Positions 26,276 through 56,280 of a stretch of 64,000 nt of DNA are shown here, piece after piece (position 1 is the stretch's first letter; each line of letters opens with the position of its first letter). Position numbers and translations under genes: made by a program. Below the pieces are notes generated by a model. That model was not told the DNA's origin. It ran no database searches and worked only from the letters and a program-made list of their open reading frames with translations. The stretch is from Kordia antarctica (GTDB taxonomy: Bacteria > Bacteroidota > Bacteroidia > Flavobacteriales > Flavobacteriaceae). Location: the NCBI RefSeq assembly GCF_009901525.1, contig NZ_CP019288.1, forward strand, positions 5,237,501-5,301,500, given 5' to 3'.

Positions 26276-26500
26276 TTAGCAGATTGGGCGTGTAGCGTAA
26301 TCTACTTCGTTTGTTTTACAGCGCTCTCTTGAGTTGTATGTACATTCCGGTCCATCTTGTGTGCAAGCTATTGACTGTGGCCCTGTACCACATTGGTAAT
26401 AATATCGCGTTTTCCTAGCACCGCCTATAACTCCGTCTTTATTTAAGCTTGAAACTGTAGATTTTTTAATCTGTAAGCTTTTTAGATTTTTTTTCTTCAT
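26276..26500 (-). CDS. Natural-product-type precursor peptide (MKKKNLKSL leader)
   Basis: 74 residues. Leader MKKKNLKSLQIKKSTVSSLN, then the Gly-Gly site VIGGARK (about residues 25–31), and a Cys-rich core (CGTGPQ, ACTQDGPEC, ERCK, RPIC; five Cys). The leader matches the MKKRNLKSL family found four more times in this window, so I group it with class-I-lanthipeptide-like or bacteriocin-like precursors of Bacteroidetes. That grouping is inference: no modifying enzyme, protease or exporter is adjacent. An operator-like palindrome lies 92 bp upstream and a terminator follows. Confidence 0.75.
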   Translation of the reverse strand: MKKKNLKSLQIKKSTVSSLNKDGVIGGARKTRYYYQCGTGPQSIACTQDGPECTYNSRERCKTNEVDYATRPIC

Positions 26501-26591: not shown

Positions 26592-26606
26592 TACGGTTTT
26601 GCCGTA
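26592..26606 (-). promoter_or_regulatory. ACGG/CCGT inverted repeat upstream of the 26.4-kb precursor
   Basis: TACGG-N5-CCGTA, 92 bp upstream of the ATG at 26500. Similar sites precede two other small Cys-rich genes (48914–48931 and, imperfectly, 55891–55909). Confidence 0.45.
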
Positions 26607-26972: not shown

Positions 26973-27554
26973 ATGCAAGTGTCTGAAAAATTTAAAAATA
27001 AATATCGAATACAATCTACCCGATTACAGTATTGGAACTACGGACGTAATGCGGCTTATTTTGTTACTATCTGTACAAAGAATAGAACGCATTTTTTTGG
27101 ACAAATTATAAGCGGAACCATGATATTATCCGAAACGGGCAAAATTGCGAATCAAAATTGGTTGACAATTCCGAAACAATTTCCATATGTAAAATTGGGC
27201 GATCATATTGTAATGCCAAATCACGTTCATGGTATTATCATTATTGATAAAAATGATGATGATCCTGTGGAGGCGCGATTAATCGCGCTTCCACAGGATC
27301 ATTCCCATAAAAAATCAGGCGGTTTTGCAGGAAATAAAAATCCAATGCTGAATAATAATTTGTCAAGAATCATCCGGTGGTACAAAGGCAGAACCACATT
27401 TGAATGTAGAAAAATAGATTCCGATTTTGAATGGCAATCTCGATTTCACGATCATATAATCCGCAATGAAAAATCGTTTTCCAATATTTCCAATTACATC
27501 ATCAACAATCCTGCGAATTGGAAGGAAGACAAATTTCATAAAACCCTGTTGTAG
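26973..27554 (+). CDS. REP-associated tyrosine transposase (RAYT, Y1 family)
   Basis: 193 residues. The N-terminal half carries YFVTICTKNRTHFFGQI and, at about 83–91, the metal-binding HUH-type signature MPNHVHGIIII. The C-terminal half has the catalytic Tyr in IIRWYKGRTT (about 137) and HDHIIRNEKSF. RAYTs are single-copy IS200/IS605-related enzymes that act on REP palindromes. Uniquely here, residues about 97–110 (PVEARLIALPQ) are encoded by a near-perfect palindrome, and the last residues HKTLL and the stop lie in another palindrome with the same core. The frame is intact, so it may be active. Confidence 0.88.
   Translation: MQVSEKFKNKYRIQSTRLQYWNYGRNAAYFVTICTKNRTHFFGQIISGTMILSETGKIANQNWLTIPKQFPYVKLGDHIVMPNHVHGIIIIDKNDDDPVEARLIALPQDHSHKKSGGFAGNKNPMLNNNLSRIIRWYKGRTTFECRKIDSDFEWQSRFHDHIIRNEKSFSNISNYIINNPANWKEDKFHKTLL
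27259..27302. repeat. REP palindrome inside the RAYT coding sequence
   Basis: 44-bp hairpin-capable palindrome (one mismatched pair) centred at 27280/27281, core GCGCGATTAATCGCGC flanked by CCTGTGGAG and CTTCCACAGG. It keeps the transposase frame open. It shares its core and general flank pattern with 27539–27590. Confidence 0.85.
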
Positions 27555-27590
27555 ATGCGCGATTAATCGCGCATCTACAACAGGGTTTTA
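27539..27590. repeat. Perfect 52-bp REP palindrome between convergent RAYT and radC-like genes
   Basis: Centre 27564/27565. The left arm reads AAACCCTGTTGTAGATGC then GCGATT, and the right arm is its exact complement. The TAG in the left arm stops RAYT (27552–27554) and the complementary TAG in the right arm stops the radC-like gene (27575–27577). Confidence 0.92.
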
Positions 27591-28198
27591 ATATCCTTAA
27601 TATACAAACCAGTATATTTCTTAATAGTTTTAATATCAAAACCATCAGCTTTCATCTTCCGAGCAATATCAATAGCTTTAGATTTCTCAGCATTCTTACG
27701 TTCATATTGTATTTTCATTTCCTTCATTTGGTCACTTTCGCGATCTTGTATTTCGTACAATCCGCTTTTGCGAAGTTCTTCCATAATGCCTTTATCCTTA
27801 AAAGAAGTAAAGCCACTTTCGGTAACAATCAAATGATCTATCACTTCAATATTAATCATCTTTCCAACCTTTAAAAGTCTGTCGGTAATATCTTTGTCGG
27901 CTGCAGATACTTTCAAGTTTCCACTCGGATGATTGTGTACCAATATCATTCGAACGGCAAGTTTATAAATTCCCATACGGAAAACATCGGGCGGCGATAC
28001 ATTTACACGGTTTTGCGCGCCAATAGCAATGAGTTCTACAAACAAAATACTGTTATCGGCTTTCAGTCCAACAACCCAAAAATGTTCCTGCGCTCTACGA
28101 ATTTTGTTTTGTCGCAGTAGTATTTGCTGCATTACGCTATAAACGTCATGCGCATTAAGAATTGTTATCTTTTGTGTTTCGGTTAGTCGTACGTTCAT
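27575..28198 (-). CDS. RadC-like JAB/JAMM-domain protein with C-terminal helical tail
   Basis: About 207 residues from the preferred ATG at 28198 (five further codons upstream are open). JAB domain at about 5–150: catalytic-type Glu in FVELIAIG, then HNHPSGNLKVSAADKD, which is HxH-x10-D, the JAMM metal site. The remaining 55 residues are charged helices ending in AIDIARKMKADGFDIKTIKK and a short YTGL turn, like the helix-turn-helix tails of Rpn-type nucleases. RadC-like proteins are common on mobile elements; their role is unproven. The last residues IKTLL come from the shared palindrome. Confidence 0.85.
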   Translation of the reverse strand: MNVRLTETQKITILNAHDVYSVMQQILLRQNKIRRAQEHFWVVGLKADNSILFVELIAIGAQNRVNVSPPDVFRMGIYKLAVRMILVHNHPSGNLKVSAADKDITDRLLKVGKMINIEVIDHLIVTESGFTSFKDKGIMEELRKSGLYEIQDRESDQMKEMKIQYERKNAEKSKAIDIARKMKADGFDIKTIKKYTGLYIKDIKTLL

Positions 28199-28301
28199 GT
28201 AGTAAATATACAATAATTAAGAAAAATTATGAGCACTTAAAAAAGTGTTTCGAAATGTTTTACAATGGAATTTTGCCAACGATATGTTCACCTAAAAAAA
28301 T

Positions 28302-36283: not shown

Positions 36284-38728
36284 TTATCCATTTTTTTCGT
36301 TTTCTAATAATTGTTCTAAAGCTAAAAGATCCGGAACTAGCACTTGTCGCGCTTTGCTTCCTTCAAACTGACCTACAATTCCTGCTGCTTCTAACTGATC
36401 TATAATTCGTCCTGCTCTATTATATCCAAGTTTCAACTTTCGTTGTAATAAGGATGCTGAACCTTGTTGTGCAATAATGATCACTTCCGCAGCTTGACGG
36501 AACAGTTTGTCTCTGTCTGAGATATCTATATCAAGACTTATGCCACTTTCTTCACCACTATATTCAGGTAATAAATATGCATCTGGATATGCTTTTTGCG
36601 CACCAATGAAATCTGTAATTTTTTCTACTTCTGGTGTATCTACAAATGCACATTGTATCCGAATTAAATCGTTTCCTTGTGTGTATAACATATCTCCACG
36701 ACCAATTAATTGATCGGCTCCAGAATTATCCAAAATGGTACGTGAATCTATTTTCGACATTACACGAAATGCAACTCTGGCAGGGAAATTCGCTTTAATC
36801 ATTCCTGTAATTACGTTTACAGAAGGTCTTTGTGTGGCAATAATTAAGTGAATTCCAATAGCACGTGCTAACTGCGCCAAACGTGCAATTGGTACTTCTA
36901 CTTCTTTTCCTGCCGTCATAATTAAATCAGCAAATTCATCAACAACTAAAACAATATATGGCAAAAACTTATGTCCGTCATTCGGATTTAGTTTTCGTGC
37001 TTTAAATTTTGTGTTGTATTCTACAATGTTACGACAGAGTGCATTTTTTAGCATATCATATCGATTGTCCATTTCAATACAAAGTGAATTTAGCGTATTA
37101 ATTACTTTAGAATTGTCTGTAATAATAGCTTCTTCCGAATCGGGAAGTTTTGCCAAGTAATGACGTTCTATTTTGTTGAATAAGGTGAGTTCTACTTTTT
37201 TCGGATCGACCAAAACAAATTTCACCTCAGCAGGATGTTTTTTGTAAAGAAGCGAAGTTAAAATACAATTCAGCCCTACCGATTTTCCTTGCCCAGTTGC
37301 TCCAGCCATTAGTAAATGTGGCATTCTGGCTAAATCGACTACTAAAGTTTCGTTGCTAATCGTTTTACCAAAAGCAATTGGCAACTGCATTTCTGCTTCT
37401 TGAAACTTCTTGGAAGCAATTGCAGAACGCATGGAAACAATAGCAGGTTTTTTGTTTGGAACTTCAATTCCGATCGTTCCTTTTCCTGGCATTGGCGCAA
37501 TAATTCGAATTCCTAATGCGGCAAGTGACAATGCAATATCGTCTTCTAAGTTTTTAATTTTTGAGATTCGAACGCCAGCTTCTGGAATTATTTCATACAG
37601 CGTTACTGTTGGTCCAACAGTTGCTTTAATGCTTGCAATTTCTATTTTGTAATTACGAAGCGTCGTAACAATTTGGTTTTTATTTTCTTCTAATTCTTCT
37701 TGATTAATGGTAATTGAACTTCCACTAGTATAATCTTTTAATAACTCAATCGTTGGAAAGCGGAAGTTTCCGAGTTCTAGTTTTGGGTCAAATTCTCCGT
37801 GTTCTTTTACAAGTTTATCAGACAAGTTTTGTGCAACTGTTTTTTCTTCGACTATTTCTTCAACTTTGATTTCTGTTTCTTCTTCGTCTTTCGGAATTTC
37901 TACTTCGAAGGAAGCATCTTTCTTTTCTTTTGTTCTATCGGAATGATTTTTTATAGTTGGTTGAAGATTTTCTACGGATAATTCAAATTCAGATTTGTCT
38001 ACTTCCGTTTCAGACTTTTTGCCTGTTGCTTCTTCAATCGTAGCATTTTCGGGTGTTGTTTCAGTTGAAGTTTCTTCTTTCAAAGTTGGTTCGGCAGTTG
38101 CTTCATCAGTTTCGAAATCGTCTTTTAGTGCGGTTGCTTTCTTGTTGAAATATTCCGTTACACTTTCTGGCGTAAGCCTTAAACGTAAAACAGCATACGT
38201 GATTGCGCCAAATAATAAGAGCAATCCGACACCAATTTTACCAATATAATCTTGCAAGAAAGCGTTTGATTCAAAACCAATAGTTCCGCCTAATAATGGA
38301 ACTGAACTGAAGAAGAATCCTGAAAAGATAGAAATCCAAATGACGATGATACTTCCCCAAAACCAATTGTTGAATAGTTTTTTTTGTGAACTTAGAAACA
38401 GGTTTAATCCTGAACGAAACAGCAATCCAACAAATATAAGTGAAGCAATTCCGAATCCTTTGTAGATAAAGAAATGGCTAATATTTGCGCCAAATTTCTG
38501 CATCCAATTTTTTGTTTCGGATGCGCGTGTAAGTTGTCCTAATTCGCTTTGATCGGCTTCCCAAGTAAAGAAAAACGAAATAAAGGCAATGAAGAGCGCG
38601 ACTGCAAATAACATGAGCAAACTTCCCAGTACAATTCTGTGTTGTTTGGTCAGTGTAAAATCAGGTTTTTTGAATTTCGGTACTCTAGGAGTTTTGTTGG
38701 TTTTCTTTACGGGTTTTTTCTTTGCCAT
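36284..38728 (-). CDS. ftsK: DNA translocase FtsK
   Basis: 814 residues. Four N-terminal membrane segments (about 30–185), an acidic linker (about 185–290; TEVDKSEFELS), then the alpha/beta motor: Walker A GATGQGKSVG (about 473), Walker B VLVVDEFADLI (about 606), GIHLIIATQRPSVNVITGMI and the gamma winged helix at the end (LLQRKLKLGYNRAGRIIDQL). Role: chromosome segregation and dimer resolution at the septum. In other flavobacteria it usually follows dgkA directly; here three precursor-peptide genes lie between. Confidence 0.95.
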   Translation of the reverse strand: MAKKKPVKKTNKTPRVPKFKKPDFTLTKQHRIVLGSLLMLFAVALFIAFISFFFTWEADQSELGQLTRASETKNWMQKFGANISHFFIYKGFGIASLIFVGLLFRSGLNLFLSSQKKLFNNWFWGSIIVIWISIFSGFFFSSVPLLGGTIGFESNAFLQDYIGKIGVGLLLLFGAITYAVLRLRLTPESVTEYFNKKATALKDDFETDEATAEPTLKEETSTETTPENATIEEATGKKSETEVDKSEFELSVENLQPTIKNHSDRTKEKKDASFEVEIPKDEEETEIKVEEIVEEKTVAQNLSDKLVKEHGEFDPKLELGNFRFPTIELLKDYTSGSSITINQEELEENKNQIVTTLRNYKIEIASIKATVGPTVTLYEIIPEAGVRISKIKNLEDDIALSLAALGIRIIAPMPGKGTIGIEVPNKKPAIVSMRSAIASKKFQEAEMQLPIAFGKTISNETLVVDLARMPHLLMAGATGQGKSVGLNCILTSLLYKKHPAEVKFVLVDPKKVELTLFNKIERHYLAKLPDSEEAIITDNSKVINTLNSLCIEMDNRYDMLKNALCRNIVEYNTKFKARKLNPNDGHKFLPYIVLVVDEFADLIMTAGKEVEVPIARLAQLARAIGIHLIIATQRPSVNVITGMIKANFPARVAFRVMSKIDSRTILDNSGADQLIGRGDMLYTQGNDLIRIQCAFVDTPEVEKITDFIGAQKAYPDAYLLPEYSGEESGISLDIDISDRDKLFRQAAEVIIIAQQGSASLLQRKLKLGYNRAGRIIDQLEAAGIVGQFEGSKARQVLVPDLLALEQLLENEKNG

Positions 38729-38938
38729 TCAGGAATCGCTATTTACTGCAAAAATACAAATTACGCTTAATCTGCAAGATATTTAAAATTAATCTTTAAG
38801 CGAAAAGTTTTTTCAGTAATTACGCGCTTTTATAGCGAAAAGGAGTGATGTTATGCTATTGTAGAAGTTTCTGAACAGTTGGAAACCTTATTGAAGATGG
38901 AAATTGCTGCCTTGAAAACATGTGTGTGAAAAGAAAAA

Positions 38939-38956
38939 AGCGGGATTTCTCCCGCT
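38939..38956 (-). terminator. Terminator of the 39.1-kb precursor gene
   Basis: AGCGGGA-TTTC-TCCCGCT, with TTTTTTC following on the minus strand, 9 bp from the stop. It separates this gene from ftsK transcription. Confidence 0.85.
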
Positions 38957-38964
38957 TATAATTT

Positions 38965-39156
38965 CTAGCTATCAGCCTGACAAGCAGCACTTAATAAATC
39001 ACAGTTTATAATACCGCACGTATTCTTTATTGGACCTACACAGCCTGTATTAGCGCAACCAATTAAAGTTTTAATTGCTCCACCTTTTACATTGTTTTCT
39101 AAATTAGAAATTGATTTCTTGTTTAAATCTAAACTTTTTAAATTTCTTTTTTTCAT
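38965..39156 (-). CDS. Precursor peptide 1 of the dgkA–ftsK insertion
   Basis: 63 residues. Leader MKKRNLKSLDLNKKSISNLE, then VKGGA (Gly-Gly site, residues about 24–28) and a core with Cys and Ser/Thr (IKTLIGCANTGCVGP, KNTCGIINCDLL, AACQADS; five Cys). The core motif GCVGP-x3-TCGII is shared with the peptide at 40091, so these two are recent duplicates. An operator-like palindrome lies 66 bp upstream. It resembles orphan lanthipeptide-type precursors; whether it is modified is unknown because no modification gene is in the window. Confidence 0.82.
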   Translation of the reverse strand: MKKRNLKSLDLNKKSISNLENNVKGGAIKTLIGCANTGCVGPIKNTCGIINCDLLSAACQADS

Positions 39157-39221
39157 GGTATTAAGTTTTTAGTTAATAATGAAACAAGGTAGAAAGAATT
39201 TCTTGTATTAAAAATTTAGAG

Positions 39222-39250
39222 ATGTCGCGATTTATAAATTATAACGACAT
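39222..39250 (-). promoter_or_regulatory. Operator-like palindrome A
   Basis: ATGTCG-N17-CGACAT with inner ATTTATAAAT, 66 bp upstream of the ATG at 39156. Homologous sites precede the genes at 39810 and 40273 at nearly the same distance. Confidence 0.55.
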
Positions 39251-39300
39251 ATTTTAAGGAATTGTTGAGTAAACAGAAGCCTTTAAAGGATTTTTTGGTA

Positions 39301-39453
39301 GAAAGTTGAAAGTGGAGAGTTAAAAGTTAAAAGTTAAAAGTTGAAAGTTGAAAGTTGAAAGTTGAAAGTGGGAAGTGAAAAGTGGAGAGTTAAAAGTTAA
39401 AAGTGAAAAGTGAAAAGTTGAAAGTGAAAGTTAAAAGTGGATAGTGAAAAGTT
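39301..39453. repeat. (AAAAGTT/GAAAGTT)n heptamer array
   Basis: About 150 bp of degenerate heptamers AAAAGTT, GAAAGTT, AAAAGTG and GAAAGTG. The rest of the 39157–39633 gap holds the operator (39222–39250), AT-rich sequence and a terminator. Confidence 0.8.
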
Positions 39454-39590
39454 GTTATGCTAACTATTTTTAAAAGCTAAATGTTATTAACCGTATAACA
39501 CTCAAACTTCAATTATAAATAATTTTAGTTGGACATTAATAATTTGTAGCTGAAAAAAAATATAGAAGAACGTTGATTTTAAGAAAGTAT

Positions 39591-39627
39591 AAGGGTTTAG
39601 TAAACACAGTATGAATACTAAACCCTT
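39591..39627 (-). terminator. Terminator of the 39.7-kb precursor gene
   Basis: AAGGGTTTAGTA-N13-TACTAAACCCTT, perfect 12-bp stem 7 bp past the stop; the T-tract on the minus strand is weak. Confidence 0.7.
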
Positions 39628-39633
39628 TTGATT

Positions 39634-39810
39634 TTAGTTTATTGGACACTGCATTGATTCGCAATCTTCATTTGTCCATCTAGTTACACAAACAATAATA
39701 GAATGCCATAACGTTTTTGAAGCTGCTTTTCCTCCTTGTAAATTACCAGTTTCTAAGTTACTAACGGTCGTCTTTTTCAATGATAAATTTTTTAGTGATC
39801 TTTTTTTCAT
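39634..39810 (-). CDS. Precursor peptide 2 of the dgkA–ftsK insertion (58 aa)
   Basis: A frame of 58 codons read directly: MKKRSLKNLSLKKTTVSNLE, then NLQGGKAASK (Gly-Gly site about residue 26) and a core TLWHSIIVCVTRWTNEDCES ending MQCPIN (three Cys). The leader is the same family as its neighbours with several substitutions, and the core is unrelated. It has its own upstream palindrome (69 bp) and terminator, so it looks expressed independently. Confidence 0.8.
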   Translation of the reverse strand: MKKRSLKNLSLKKTTVSNLETGNLQGGKAASKTLWHSIIVCVTRWTNEDCESMQCPIN

Positions 39811-39878
39811 ACTATTAAATTTTATGATTTATAATTAAACCAAGTTATAACAAAAAGAAGAATAAAAAATAATCAGTA

Positions 39879-39903
39879 GTCGTGATTTATGAATCATAAC
39901 GAC
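39879..39903 (-). promoter_or_regulatory. Operator-like palindrome B
   Basis: GTCGT and ACGAC frame TGATT-tatg-AATCA. 69 bp upstream of the ATG at 39810. Shares ATTTAT and ATAACGACA with site A. Confidence 0.55.
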
Positions 39904-39984
39904 AGTTTTCAAACTATTTTTTGAAGATAGATGAAGCACTTTTAAATTCGTTTGAATGTGCGATGATTGAAATATATATAAAGA

Positions 39985-40019
39985 AAAACTAGCTAAAAAA
40001 ATGCTTCTTAGCTAGTTTT
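39985..40019 (-). terminator. Terminator of the 40.2-kb precursor gene
   Basis: AAAACTAGCTAA-N11-TTAGCTAGTTTT, perfect 12-bp stem, then TTTCTTTATA on the minus strand. Confidence 0.75.
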
Positions 40020-40090
40020 GAGAGTAATGATGATACAAGTTCCTTTTATATTTTAGTAAATAAATAGAACTTGAATTTTCTTAAAGAAAT

Positions 40091-40273
40091 TTACTTGTCG
40101 TTTCCTATTGTACACGTATATATAATTCCACATGTTGGATGTGGTGGTCCAACACAGCCAGTCGCAAGAGGACATTCTTTATAAGTCTGAATAGCTCCTC
40201 CTTTCAATGCATTTTCTAAATTAGAAATTGATTTTTTGTTTAAATCTAAACTTTTTAAATTTCTTTTCTTCAT
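40091..40273 (-). CDS. Precursor peptide 3 of the dgkA–ftsK insertion
   Basis: 60 residues from ATG at 40273; the frame is open 11 codons further but the leader starts here, as in the homologues. MKKRNLKSLDLNKKSISNLE is identical to the leader at 39156, then ALKGGA and the core IQTYKECPLATGCVGPPHP, TCGIIYTCTIGNDK (four Cys). Shares GCVGP-x3-TCGII with the first peptide. Site C lies 68 bp upstream. It sits directly downstream of dgkA on the same strand, inside what is otherwise a conserved gene order. Confidence 0.82.
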   Translation of the reverse strand: MKKRNLKSLDLNKKSISNLENALKGGAIQTYKECPLATGCVGPPHPTCGIIYTCTIGNDK

Positions 40274-40340
40274 GATTAAAGTTTTTAAGATTAATAATGA
40301 AAACAAGATAGAAAGAATTTATGATGTTTAAAACTAAGAA

Positions 40341-40367
40341 TTGTTAGAATTTATAAATTAACACAAC
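40341..40367 (-). promoter_or_regulatory. Operator-like palindrome C
   Basis: TTGTTAgAATTTATAAATTa then ACACAA, 68 bp upstream of the ATG at 40273. Less perfect than A and B but with the same AATTTATAAATT centre. Confidence 0.45.
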
Positions 40368-40400
40368 AACTTGTTTGCTAGTTATCAGTACGTTGAAGCT

Positions 40401-40760
40401 TTAAAGTATTTTGGGAAGATAGATGAAGCAACCTATAATTACAGCCGCAACTGCAAATATGAAAACTGCGCCAGCCGCTAAATCTTTGATTAAACCAATT
40501 TTTTTATGATGTTCAGGATGTATGAAATCGGCAATTTCTTCAATAGCTGTGTTGATTCCTTCTAGGCTCATAATGAGTCCGATAATAAGAATTTGTACAA
40601 TCCATTCTGTTTTGGAGATTTCAAAGTAAAATCCAGCAATGGTAATTAACACGCCAATAAAAAACTGTGCTTTTACACTGGCTTCCGTAGTAATGAGCAG
40701 ATATGCGCCTTTAAACGCATATCCGACTCCTTTTATTCTTCCTTTAATGAATTTAATCAT
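40401..40760 (-). CDS. Diacylglycerol kinase family protein
   Basis: 119 residues with three membrane segments. Family motifs: GVGYAFKGAYLLITTEASVK, then GLIMSLEGINTAIEEIADFI (the catalytic/Mg-binding Glu-rich helix) and HHKKIGLIKDLAAGAVFI. It phosphorylates diacylglycerol or undecaprenol in the inner membrane. Its first codons overlap the end of tpx by 8 bp, so the two form one operon; in flavobacteria it normally leads to ftsK. Confidence 0.9.
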   Translation of the reverse strand: MIKFIKGRIKGVGYAFKGAYLLITTEASVKAQFFIGVLITIAGFYFEISKTEWIVQILIIGLIMSLEGINTAIEEIADFIHPEHHKKIGLIKDLAAGAVFIFAVAAVIIGCFIYLPKIL

Positions 40761-55663: not shown

Positions 55664-55837
55664 CTATTGTGGCGGTTCTGAAGTTGTTTCACATTCATTA
55701 CAGAGATATATCCAACTTGAAGGGCATGCTTCAGTTTCGCGACAATAATAAGAGCCACCACCTTTTATTGAATTGTCATGTAATTGAGAAATTGATTTTT
55801 TGTTAAGACTTAATGATTTAAGATTTCTTTTTTTCAT
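55664..55837 (-). CDS. Precursor peptide near tRNA-Leu (57 aa)
   Basis: 57 codons read directly: MKKRNLKSLSLNKKSISQLH, then SIKGGGSYY (Gly-Gly site about residue 26) and a core CRETEACPSSWIYLCNECET ending SEPPQ (four Cys). The leader belongs to the family at 39–40 kb and 26 kb; the core is unrelated to them. It lies between two copies of a terminator-tRNA flank sequence. No processing genes nearby. Its 5'UTR holds a 25-bp palindrome. Confidence 0.8.
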   Translation of the reverse strand: MKKRNLKSLSLNKKSISQLHDNSIKGGGSYYCRETEACPSSWIYLCNECETTSEPPQ

Positions 55838-55890: not shown

Positions 55891-55909
55891 ATTACGGTAA
55901 ACCCATAAT
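55891..55909 (-). promoter_or_regulatory. ACGG-type imperfect palindrome
   Basis: ATTACGG-TAAA-CCCATAAT, 54 bp upstream of the ATG at 55837. Weaker relative of the sites at 26592 and 48914. Confidence 0.35.
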
Positions 55910-55921
55910 TAACATTTAAAC

Positions 55922-55974
55922 AAAAAAATCCCAACATTTCTGTTAGGATTTCATTTTAAGAATAAATTTCTTAG
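55922..55974 (-). terminator. Terminator of the tRNA-Leu/Lys cluster
   Basis: AATCCCAACA-TTTC-TGTTAGGATT hairpin (55927–55950) with T-run on the minus strand, directly behind tRNA-Leu. Confidence 0.75.
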
Positions 55975-56058
55975 TACCGAAAATGGGAGTCGAACCCACA
56001 CGCCCTAAAGGACACATGGCCCTCAACCATGCCTGTCTACCAATTCCAGCACTTCGGT
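55975..56058 (-). tRNA. tRNA-Leu (GAG)
   Basis: Minus strand: acceptor ACCGAAG/TTTCGGT, D-arm GGAATTGGTAGACAGGC, anticodon stem CATGG/CCATG with loop TTGAGGG (anticodon GAG), long variable arm, T-arm GGGTTCGACTCCC. CCA not encoded. Confidence 0.95.
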
Positions 56059-56106
56059 GTACTTTATAAAAATAAAAGGAGTTAAACAAATGCTTAACTC
56101 CTTTTG

Positions 56107-56179
56107 TGATCTGGCTGGGGCTCGAACCCAGGACCCTCTCCTTAAAAGGGAGATGCTCTACCAACTGAGCTACCAGATC
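56107..56179 (-). tRNA. tRNA-Lys (UUU)
   Basis: Minus strand: acceptor GATCTGG/CCAGATC, anticodon stem TCTCC/GGAGA with loop CTTTTAA (anticodon TTT), T-arm TGGGTTCGAGCCCCA. The sequence is identical to the next tRNA-Lys. Confidence 0.96.
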
Positions 56180-56207
56180 AATGACCTTTGTAGTTAGTAT
56201 ATATTTG

Positions 56208-56280
56208 TGATCTGGCTGGGGCTCGAACCCAGGACCCTCTCCTTAAAAGGGAGATGCTCTACCAACTGAGCTACCAGATC
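56208..56280 (-). tRNA. tRNA-Lys (UUU), second identical copy
   Basis: Identical 73-bp sequence to 56107–56179, 28 bp away. A tandem duplication of the gene; the first gene of the Lys-Lys-Leu transcript. Confidence 0.96.

Follow-up and report, generated by a model that had tools for sequence, protein, structure and literature searches.

The question raised by the dgkA–ftsK locus of Kordia antarctica is what the three short peptide genes that lie within it encode, and which enzymes could act upon their products. The locus was analysed within a window of DNA comprising 64,000 nucleotides (NCBI RefSeq assembly GCF_009901525.1, contig NZ_CP019288.1, forward-strand positions 5,237,501 to 5,301,500; coordinates in the window count from its first letter). 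The gap between the end of dgkA (40401) and the start of ftsK (38728), which is 1.67 kb long and is called the slot below, is filled by three genes on the minus strand, P1, P2 and P3. Judged from sequence, it is highly probable that these genes encode class I lanthipeptide precursors of the Bacteroidota type, and belong to a scattered family, about 140 strong, that is served in trans by one locus at 3.74 Mb of the same genome. An earlier note, made from the window alone, had proposed a dispersed precursor family served in trans; the genome-wide scale of about 140 precursors, and the pairing of some of them with TPR-AraC regulators, lay beyond what that note could see.

A dispersed leader family and a single LanB/LanC locus

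What, then, identifies the three genes as precursors? P1 (38965..39156) has 63 amino acids, P2 (39634..39810) has 58 and P3 (40091..40273) has 60 from the ATG at 40273, in agreement with the three leader-peptide open reading frames (ORFs) that had been proposed for the gap. All three begin with MKKR and reach a GG at about residue 26. As had also been claimed, P1 and P3 share a common leader (MKKRNLKSLDLNKKSISNLENALKGG in P3) and the core motif GCVGP-x3-TCGII, the core of P1 including GCANTGCVGPIKNTCGIINC and that of P3 GCVGPPHPTCGII, and P2 carries an unrelated core, KAASKTLWHSIIVCVTRWTNEDCESMQCPIN. Pfam gives no match for any of the three. NF038153, the NCBIfam model for class I lanthipeptide leaders, finds 87 matches in the whole genome at E<=10, and scores P1, P2 and P3 at 10.5, 20.8 and 11.5 bits, respectively, against a cut-off of 22.

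Since NF038153 left P1–P3 below its cut-off and Pfam gave none, a leader model was built from the genome's own leaders. The genome is 5.50 Mb in size, with a G+C content of 33.0% in the DNA around the precursors. A first hidden Markov model (HMM), made from 33 of its leaders, gave at least 141 genome matches at E<=10 among the best 150 of 274 candidates scored. An iterated model, run on 17,079 stop-to-stop ORFs from 84 stretches around matches, found 143 ORFs at E<=0.02, 140 of them with an in-frame ATG, and found none in either reversed or shuffled ORFs; the E-values for P1, P2 and P3 are 3.4e-12, 1.4e-10 and 1.7e-11. As most of the 143 had gone into training the iterated model, the 139 that the first 33-row model alone finds on the stretch ORFs is the more independent figure. 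The search for the leader across the genome, which the earlier note had named as a check, thus reveals a dispersed family, with the 143 matches falling into 84 clusters, 49 of which are singletons.

Class I precursors of the Bacteroidetes have been described with LxLxKx5L leaders ending in GG, often together with a C39 protease gene (Walker et al., PMC7268733). The Kordia leaders follow this pattern, with a strict fit to LxLxKx5L in 73 of 143 and a relaxed fit in 135; P1 and P3 (LDLNKKSISNL) and P2 (LSLKKTTVSNL) all fit strictly. The leader ends in GG or GA in 136 of the 143, GG accounting for 131 of these. Cysteine is present in 134 of the 136 cores and makes up 11.9% of core residues versus 0.1% of leader residues.

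Across the whole genome there is one match to LANC_like (PF05147) and one to Lant_dehydr_N (PF04738), and the two are adjacent at 3.74 Mb (E<=0.01). One strand of this locus carries a C39-ABC transporter and HlyD (Pfam), so that the LanB/LanC and C39 locus for which the earlier note had advised a search does exist. The other strand carries LanC, the glutamylation and elimination halves of LanB, a precursor-like ORF that has no ATG, and a TPR-AraC gene with a further precursor. LanC is a stand-alone protein of 405 amino acids beside the separate LanB, and a LanB half resembles NisB structures (4wd9, E 2e-24). The locus lies 1.5 Mb from the P1–P3 trio, and only two of the 143 leader matches are found within 20 kb of it, the other 141 being farther away. 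If P1–P3 are lanthipeptides, they must, in this genome at least, be served in trans, and the single LanB and LanC matches bear out the earlier view of a dispersed family served from elsewhere. No C39 peptidase was seen by eye among window ORFs of at least 100 amino acids, and no genome-wide C39 search was run.

In the scheme that we infer, the precursor leader would dock on the split LanB, which would glutamylate serine and threonine residues of the core and then eliminate the glutamate. LanC would close thioether rings with the core cysteines, after which the C39-ABC transporter with HlyD would cleave behind the GG and export the core. Expression would be controlled gene by gene through short palindromic operators, and a subset of the precursors, which lies directly behind genes for membrane TPR-AraC regulators, would have its exported peptides sensed by them.

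The leaders are also associated with LanC in other genomes. All 11 Kordia genomes contain LanC and from at least 122 to at least 150 leader matches each (E<=0.01, among the best 150 candidates scored). One LanC locus from each of the 10 other Kordia includes LanC, both LanB halves, HlyD and TPR-AraC in every case; C39-ABC is seen in seven (for one of which, L232, the counterpart of G152, a longer locus stretch was used), and the remaining three stretches end before its place. Across 149 genomes sampled at family level, leader matches at E<=1e-4 occur in six, all among the eight genomes with LanC, and in none of the 141 without it. The best other genome in an order-level sample of 393 has at least five leader matches, with the best 21 candidates scored in each. 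Among 79 LanC loci from named genomes (Kordia, Aquimarina, Sinomicrobium, Ulvibacterium, Lacinutrix, Flavobacterium, Chryseobacterium and others, with flanks of up to 10 kb) a leader-family ORF lies near LanC in 66 at E<=0.05 (57 of 70 outside Kordia) and in 60 at E<=1e-4, and a leader adjoining LanC in Lacinutrix is identical to that of P1/P3 at 16 of 20 positions. Together, this co-occurrence, this co-localisation and the Lacinutrix leader tie the dispersed leaders to LanB/LanC.

The same observations bear on an alternative in which the dispersed genes encode cysteine-rich secreted peptides with GG leaders, such as disulfide-containing bacteriocins or effectors, that use the C39-ABC transporter only, while LanB/LanC modifies just the adjacent precursors. 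The richness of the cores in cysteine suits this alternative, as does the fact that one type of operator-like site (type B, below) is also found equally far upstream of another GG-leader family (MLKNI..GG), so that GG export is the shared feature. It is nevertheless unlikely, as the dispersed and the LanC-adjacent leaders form one family, seen in the 66 of 79 loci and in Lacinutrix, and the leaders of the family-level sample occur only in LanC genomes. Less likely still is the modification of many of these precursors by radical S-adenosylmethionine (SAM) enzymes. Peptides modified by such enzymes and lanthipeptides have both been reported in Kordia (PMC11118758, in the parts examined), yet ORFs with the pattern C-x3-C-x-[FWYHL]-C number only four in 631 kb around the precursors, with none in the LanB/LanC locus, a count that involved no genome-wide search for radical SAM enzymes.

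The dgkA–ftsK slot across Kordia

Is the slot itself peculiar to this genome? It is bordered upstream by dgkA (40401..40760, minus strand), which has a single match in each of the 11 Kordia genomes, and downstream by ftsK (36284..38728, minus strand), placed by its ORF and by comparison of gene order. The order tpx-dgkA-[slot]-ftsK-lolA-lptFG, which had been taken as conserved, is indeed kept in all nine other Kordia genomes with a complete slot; in the tenth (L195) the contig stops after dgkA and the slot is incomplete. Seven of the nine complete slots hold intact precursors, from one to three per slot and from both core families: the core family of P1 and P3 recurs in them, and orthologues of P2 are found in L192, L193 and L196. 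Two slots are empty, those of K. algicida (L197) and K. jejudonensis (L199), and two others contain a truncated or start-less copy beside intact precursors (L193 2892-3026; L196 3268-3357). The earlier description of the three genes as inserted is therefore too strong for this species, because the slot serves as a site for precursors throughout the genus, empty in two of nine genomes and with decayed copies in two others.

The slot precursor genes are under purifying selection in both leader and core. The pairwise ratio of non-synonymous to synonymous change (pN/pS) in the P2 family is 0.28 for the leader and 0.49 for the core (four sequences); in the P1/P3 family it is 0.27 and 0.47 (10 sequences), a comparison that takes in paralogues and in which synonymous sites are near saturation. 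The values stay under 0.5 for cores and under 0.3 for leaders; the genes are thus being maintained, and their cores cannot drift freely. Another explanation would be that the dispersed genes are mostly untranslated or decaying duplicates. The truncated or start-less copies of L193 and L196 and the two empty slots are what such decay would leave behind, yet the pN/pS values, the intact copies in seven of nine complete slots and the presence of operator-like sites at a fixed distance all argue the other way, and of the explanations considered here it is the least credible.

The two relatives reported elsewhere in the window, at 26.3 and 55.7 kb, are also members of the leader family and lie on the minus strand: one of 74 amino acids at 26276..26500 (leader HMM E 1.2e-10) and one of 57 at 55664..55837 (E 2.4e-13). 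The first adjoins ORFs within 26973-28213 whose motifs, PNHVHGI and HNHPSGN, suggest a REP-associated tyrosine transposase and a JAB protein of the RadC type, respectively, and the second adjoins a tRNA-Leu and two tRNA-Lys genes (55974-56280). Within the slot, P1 and P2 are separated by an array of about 22 copies of GAAAGTT (39301-39454).

Operator-like palindromes and TPR-AraC regulators

If each precursor is controlled on its own, what signals stand before it? The upstream regions of 140 precursors were subjected to de novo motif finding and to a general palindrome score evaluated against dinucleotide shuffles. Palindromes that score 10 or above are enriched, occurring in 24 of the 140 versus 3.8 expected. 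Two types of site recur. Type A has TTTATAAA at its centre and was called at 24 sites, at about -90; type B, TACGGN5CCGTA, was called at 35, at about -78. Both lists include some off-position and probably spurious sites. The exact type B pattern has 27 sites in the genome versus one for the reversed control, and not all 27 precede a recognisable peptide gene.

Within the window, the type A palindrome of P1 (GTCGTTATAATTTATAAATCGCGAC on the minus strand, 39224..39248) lies 92-68 bp before the ATG, and sites within six mismatches of it occur in five of 140 precursor upstream regions, itself included, versus none of 248 controls. The palindrome of P2 (GTCGTTATGATTCATAAATCACGAC on the minus strand, 39879..39903) recurs in four of 140, again including itself, versus none of 248, and by eye a TTYATRAA-centred site is seen upstream of all three P2 orthologues. 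That of P3 (40341..40366, centred on ATTTATAAAT) is weaker. The 26.3-kb relative is preceded by one of the 27 exact type B sites (26592..26606) and the 55.7-kb relative by a type B-like one, GTTAATTATGGGTTTACCGTAA (55892..55913). A terminator scan places terminators on the minus strand after P1 (38938..38957) and P3 (39985..40019); the hairpin after P2 (39584..39634, minus strand) has a poor T tract and is weak as a terminator. The claim that every gene has its own terminator thus holds for P1 and P3, and only weakly for P2. Across 38750-40500 there are four terminator-like sites versus 0.5 expected, two of which are one hairpin read on both strands.

Type B sites also stand 52-57 bp before the ATG of a second family of short GG-leader genes, at seven places in the genome (30987, 202613, 233447, 486913, 697192, 4026982 and 5314487; L176-L180, L182, L218 and L113). 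Its members are of the type MLKNI-N-GVK-L-KKEQ--I-GG with cysteine-containing tails, two tested members have no match in NCBIfam, and the two leader families may share one regulator.

Several other approaches to the operators were set aside. Hand-written patterns were too loose and were replaced by the de novo motifs and the palindrome score; of the de novo motifs, numbers 1, 2 and 4 were dropped as resembling coding sequence or low complexity, and number 3 resembles a promoter region. A test with a fixed TTTATAAA plus arms was weaker (at least five matching arm pairs in 11 of 140 precursors versus five of 248 control upstream regions), and several operator-sharing counts were no better than controls, for instance the 346240 type with seven of 140 versus eight of 248. 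Assignment of P1 and P2 to the TPR-AraC regulator at 2.104 Mb, by way of the similar palindrome of its precursor (2103588), is not claimed; that palindrome differs from the one of P1 by six mismatches and stands at -194 instead of -92.

There is also an association with regulator genes. The genome has 44 matches to HTH_18, of which 21 are in frames of 545-621 amino acids, and Pfam assigns TPR plus HTH_18 to 20 of these (counting L216, whose TPR scores are under the Pfam cut-offs) and GAF plus HTH_18 to one (3898578). A precursor directly follows the TPR-AraC gene, within 400 bp and on the same strand, in 16 of 20 cases versus one of the 24 other HTH_18 matches, which were set apart by frame length or, for the GAF-AraC gene at 3898578, by Pfam. 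Grouped by frame length before the Pfam check, the figures are 16 of 21 versus one of 23 (Fisher p 8e-7). Two of the remaining four TPR-AraC genes (L212, L216) are followed, by eye, by leader-like ORFs. The lone positive among the 24 others is a broken AraC-type remnant (G000:C1:2770455-2770693) followed by an intact-looking precursor, which suggests that a precursor can outlive its regulator. In named LanC loci, 27 of 42 TPR-AraC genes have a precursor behind them, as do 16 of 30 outside Kordia. Strong palindromes (score of at least 10) lie 76-90 bp upstream of nine of the 16 precursors that follow TPR-AraC genes (15 intact regulators and the remnant), and these nine are mostly different between regulators.

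What might such regulators sense? In a simple scan of hydropathy, all 15 TPR-AraC proteins scanned from this genome, and 41 of 42 from elsewhere, have a membrane helix at about 350-450; a signal-like helix at the N terminus is seen in eight of the 15 and 31 of the 42. The sensor part is thus predicted to be periplasmic and the helix-turn-helix (HTH) cytoplasmic. An AlphaFold model of a K. algicida TPR-AraC protein shows a TPR superhelix, a long helix and the HTH (pLDDT 85.6, pTM 0.58). Its top fold matches in the PDB are the TPR domains of LGN/Pins with bound partners, and RapF with an inhibitory peptide (4i9c) and phage Rap are also among the matches (E 2e-5); by sequence, only the HTH finds matches in the PDB. 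TPR folds match each other readily, so that a peptide receptor is permitted rather than proven by these comparisons.

The regulators most likely sense an exported peptide. More tentatively, and with the balance leaning against it, the mature lanthipeptides could themselves be the signals, each periplasmic TPR-TM-AraC receptor binding the peptide of its downstream precursor, to give at least 16 channels with their own operators that would share the LanB/LanC/C39 factory with more than 100 orphan precursors like P1–P3. There is an even chance that the TPR-AraC proteins are instead ordinary cluster regulators that answer other cues, such as envelope stress, sugars or a partner organism, which would be compatible with P1–P3 as lanthipeptide precursors served in trans. 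Two TPR-AraC genes (L214, L215) precede unrelated proteins, and a GAF-type regulator of the same size without TPR precedes a secreted protein (L211), as such a role would allow. The presence of one regulator for each adjacent precursor in 16 of 20 cases speaks against it, as do the predicted position of the sensor outside the inner membrane and the best folds, which are of peptide-bound TPR proteins and include RapF with its peptide.

A number of observations weigh against lanthipeptide precursors served by one locus and gene-by-gene control. The NF038153 cut-off is reached by none of P1–P3 and exceeded by only 20 of the model's 87 genome matches; two of 136 cores have no cysteine; and one of the 143 matches (4340337-4340444, with no ATG, GG or cysteine) is probably spurious. 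Only six of the eight LanC genomes in the family-level sample gave leader matches, and 13 of the 79 LanC loci have no leader-family ORF in the flanks of up to 10 kb. Each of the 10 other Kordia has three to six LanC matches, some of them weak and partial, so that reliance on one set of enzymes for all precursors may be peculiar to this genome. With a strong palindrome before only 24 of 140 precursors, most are without a recognised operator, and the pairing with regulators is broken by the two TPR-AraC genes that precede unrelated proteins.

Comparison with known systems

That Kordia is rich in such pathways, and that counts of ribosomally synthesised and post-translationally modified peptides (RiPPs) are high in Bacteroidota, is already published. 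A listing from 2010 already includes a LanB/LanC/LanA cluster of K. algicida (PMC3091789), Kordia stood out in a 2023 survey for its many biosynthetic clusters (PMC10734526), and a deep-learning survey of 2024 found up to 176 RiPP precursors in one Bacteroidota genome and named Kordia as RiPP-rich (PMC11118758). The parts of the last survey that were examined contain no single LanB/LanC acting in trans, no TPR-AraC pairing, no operators and no dgkA–ftsK slot, and in the portions of the open-licence literature consulted no account was found of a single LanB/LanC acting in trans in Kordia or of the pairing of TPR-AraC with lanthipeptides. The pairing of TPR-AraC genes with precursors is accordingly presented as new. 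For Kordia antarctica, antiSMASH gave nine clusters with lanthipeptide among their types (PMC7477175), and mining based upon clusters can miss dispersed precursors.

If P1–P3 and their relatives are what they appear to be, a single LanB/LanC pair of class I acts on about 140 natural cores within the same cell, which would provide a natural library for the specificity of dehydratase and cyclase outside the ProcM paradigm. The regulator pairing also makes the purpose of such peptide libraries testable, by asking whether exported lanthipeptides are ligands of the TPR-AraC proteins.

RRNPP peptide receptors include Rap, PlcR and Rgg. The predicted TPR-AraC structure resembles them in having a TPR superhelix of the peptide-binding kind joined to a regulatory output, beside a small peptide gene, and differs in its predicted periplasmic sensor, its transmembrane helix and AraC-type HTH, and its putative ligand, a lanthipeptide.

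The Bacteroidetes class I lanthipeptides, such as the pinensins, share with the Kordia system the leader motif, the GG end and the LanB/LanC and C39 genes (PMC7268733), but have been described from gene clusters, whereas in this genome more than 20 kb separates 141 of 143 precursors from the enzymes. In that respect the closer likeness is to the prochlorosins and SyncA–SyncM of picocyanobacteria, class II systems with ProcM, in which scattered precursors with one conserved GG leader and diverse cores (83 precursors in Synechococcus MIT9509) are served by one promiscuous enzyme (PMC10783134). As in those systems, the Kordia precursors are distant from a single set of enzymes. They are not prochlorosins proper, which have LanM and a Nif11-type leader: the Kordia LanC stands alone and the leader is of the LxLxKx5L type (no LanM-specific search of the genome was run). 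The Kordia system differs further in its split class I LanB with LanC, its roughly 140 precursors, its Bacteroidota host and the TPR-AraC pairing of a subset. What emerges is probably a prochlorosin-like system of class I, with one factory and many substrates, that is possibly organised as peptide-receptor channels.

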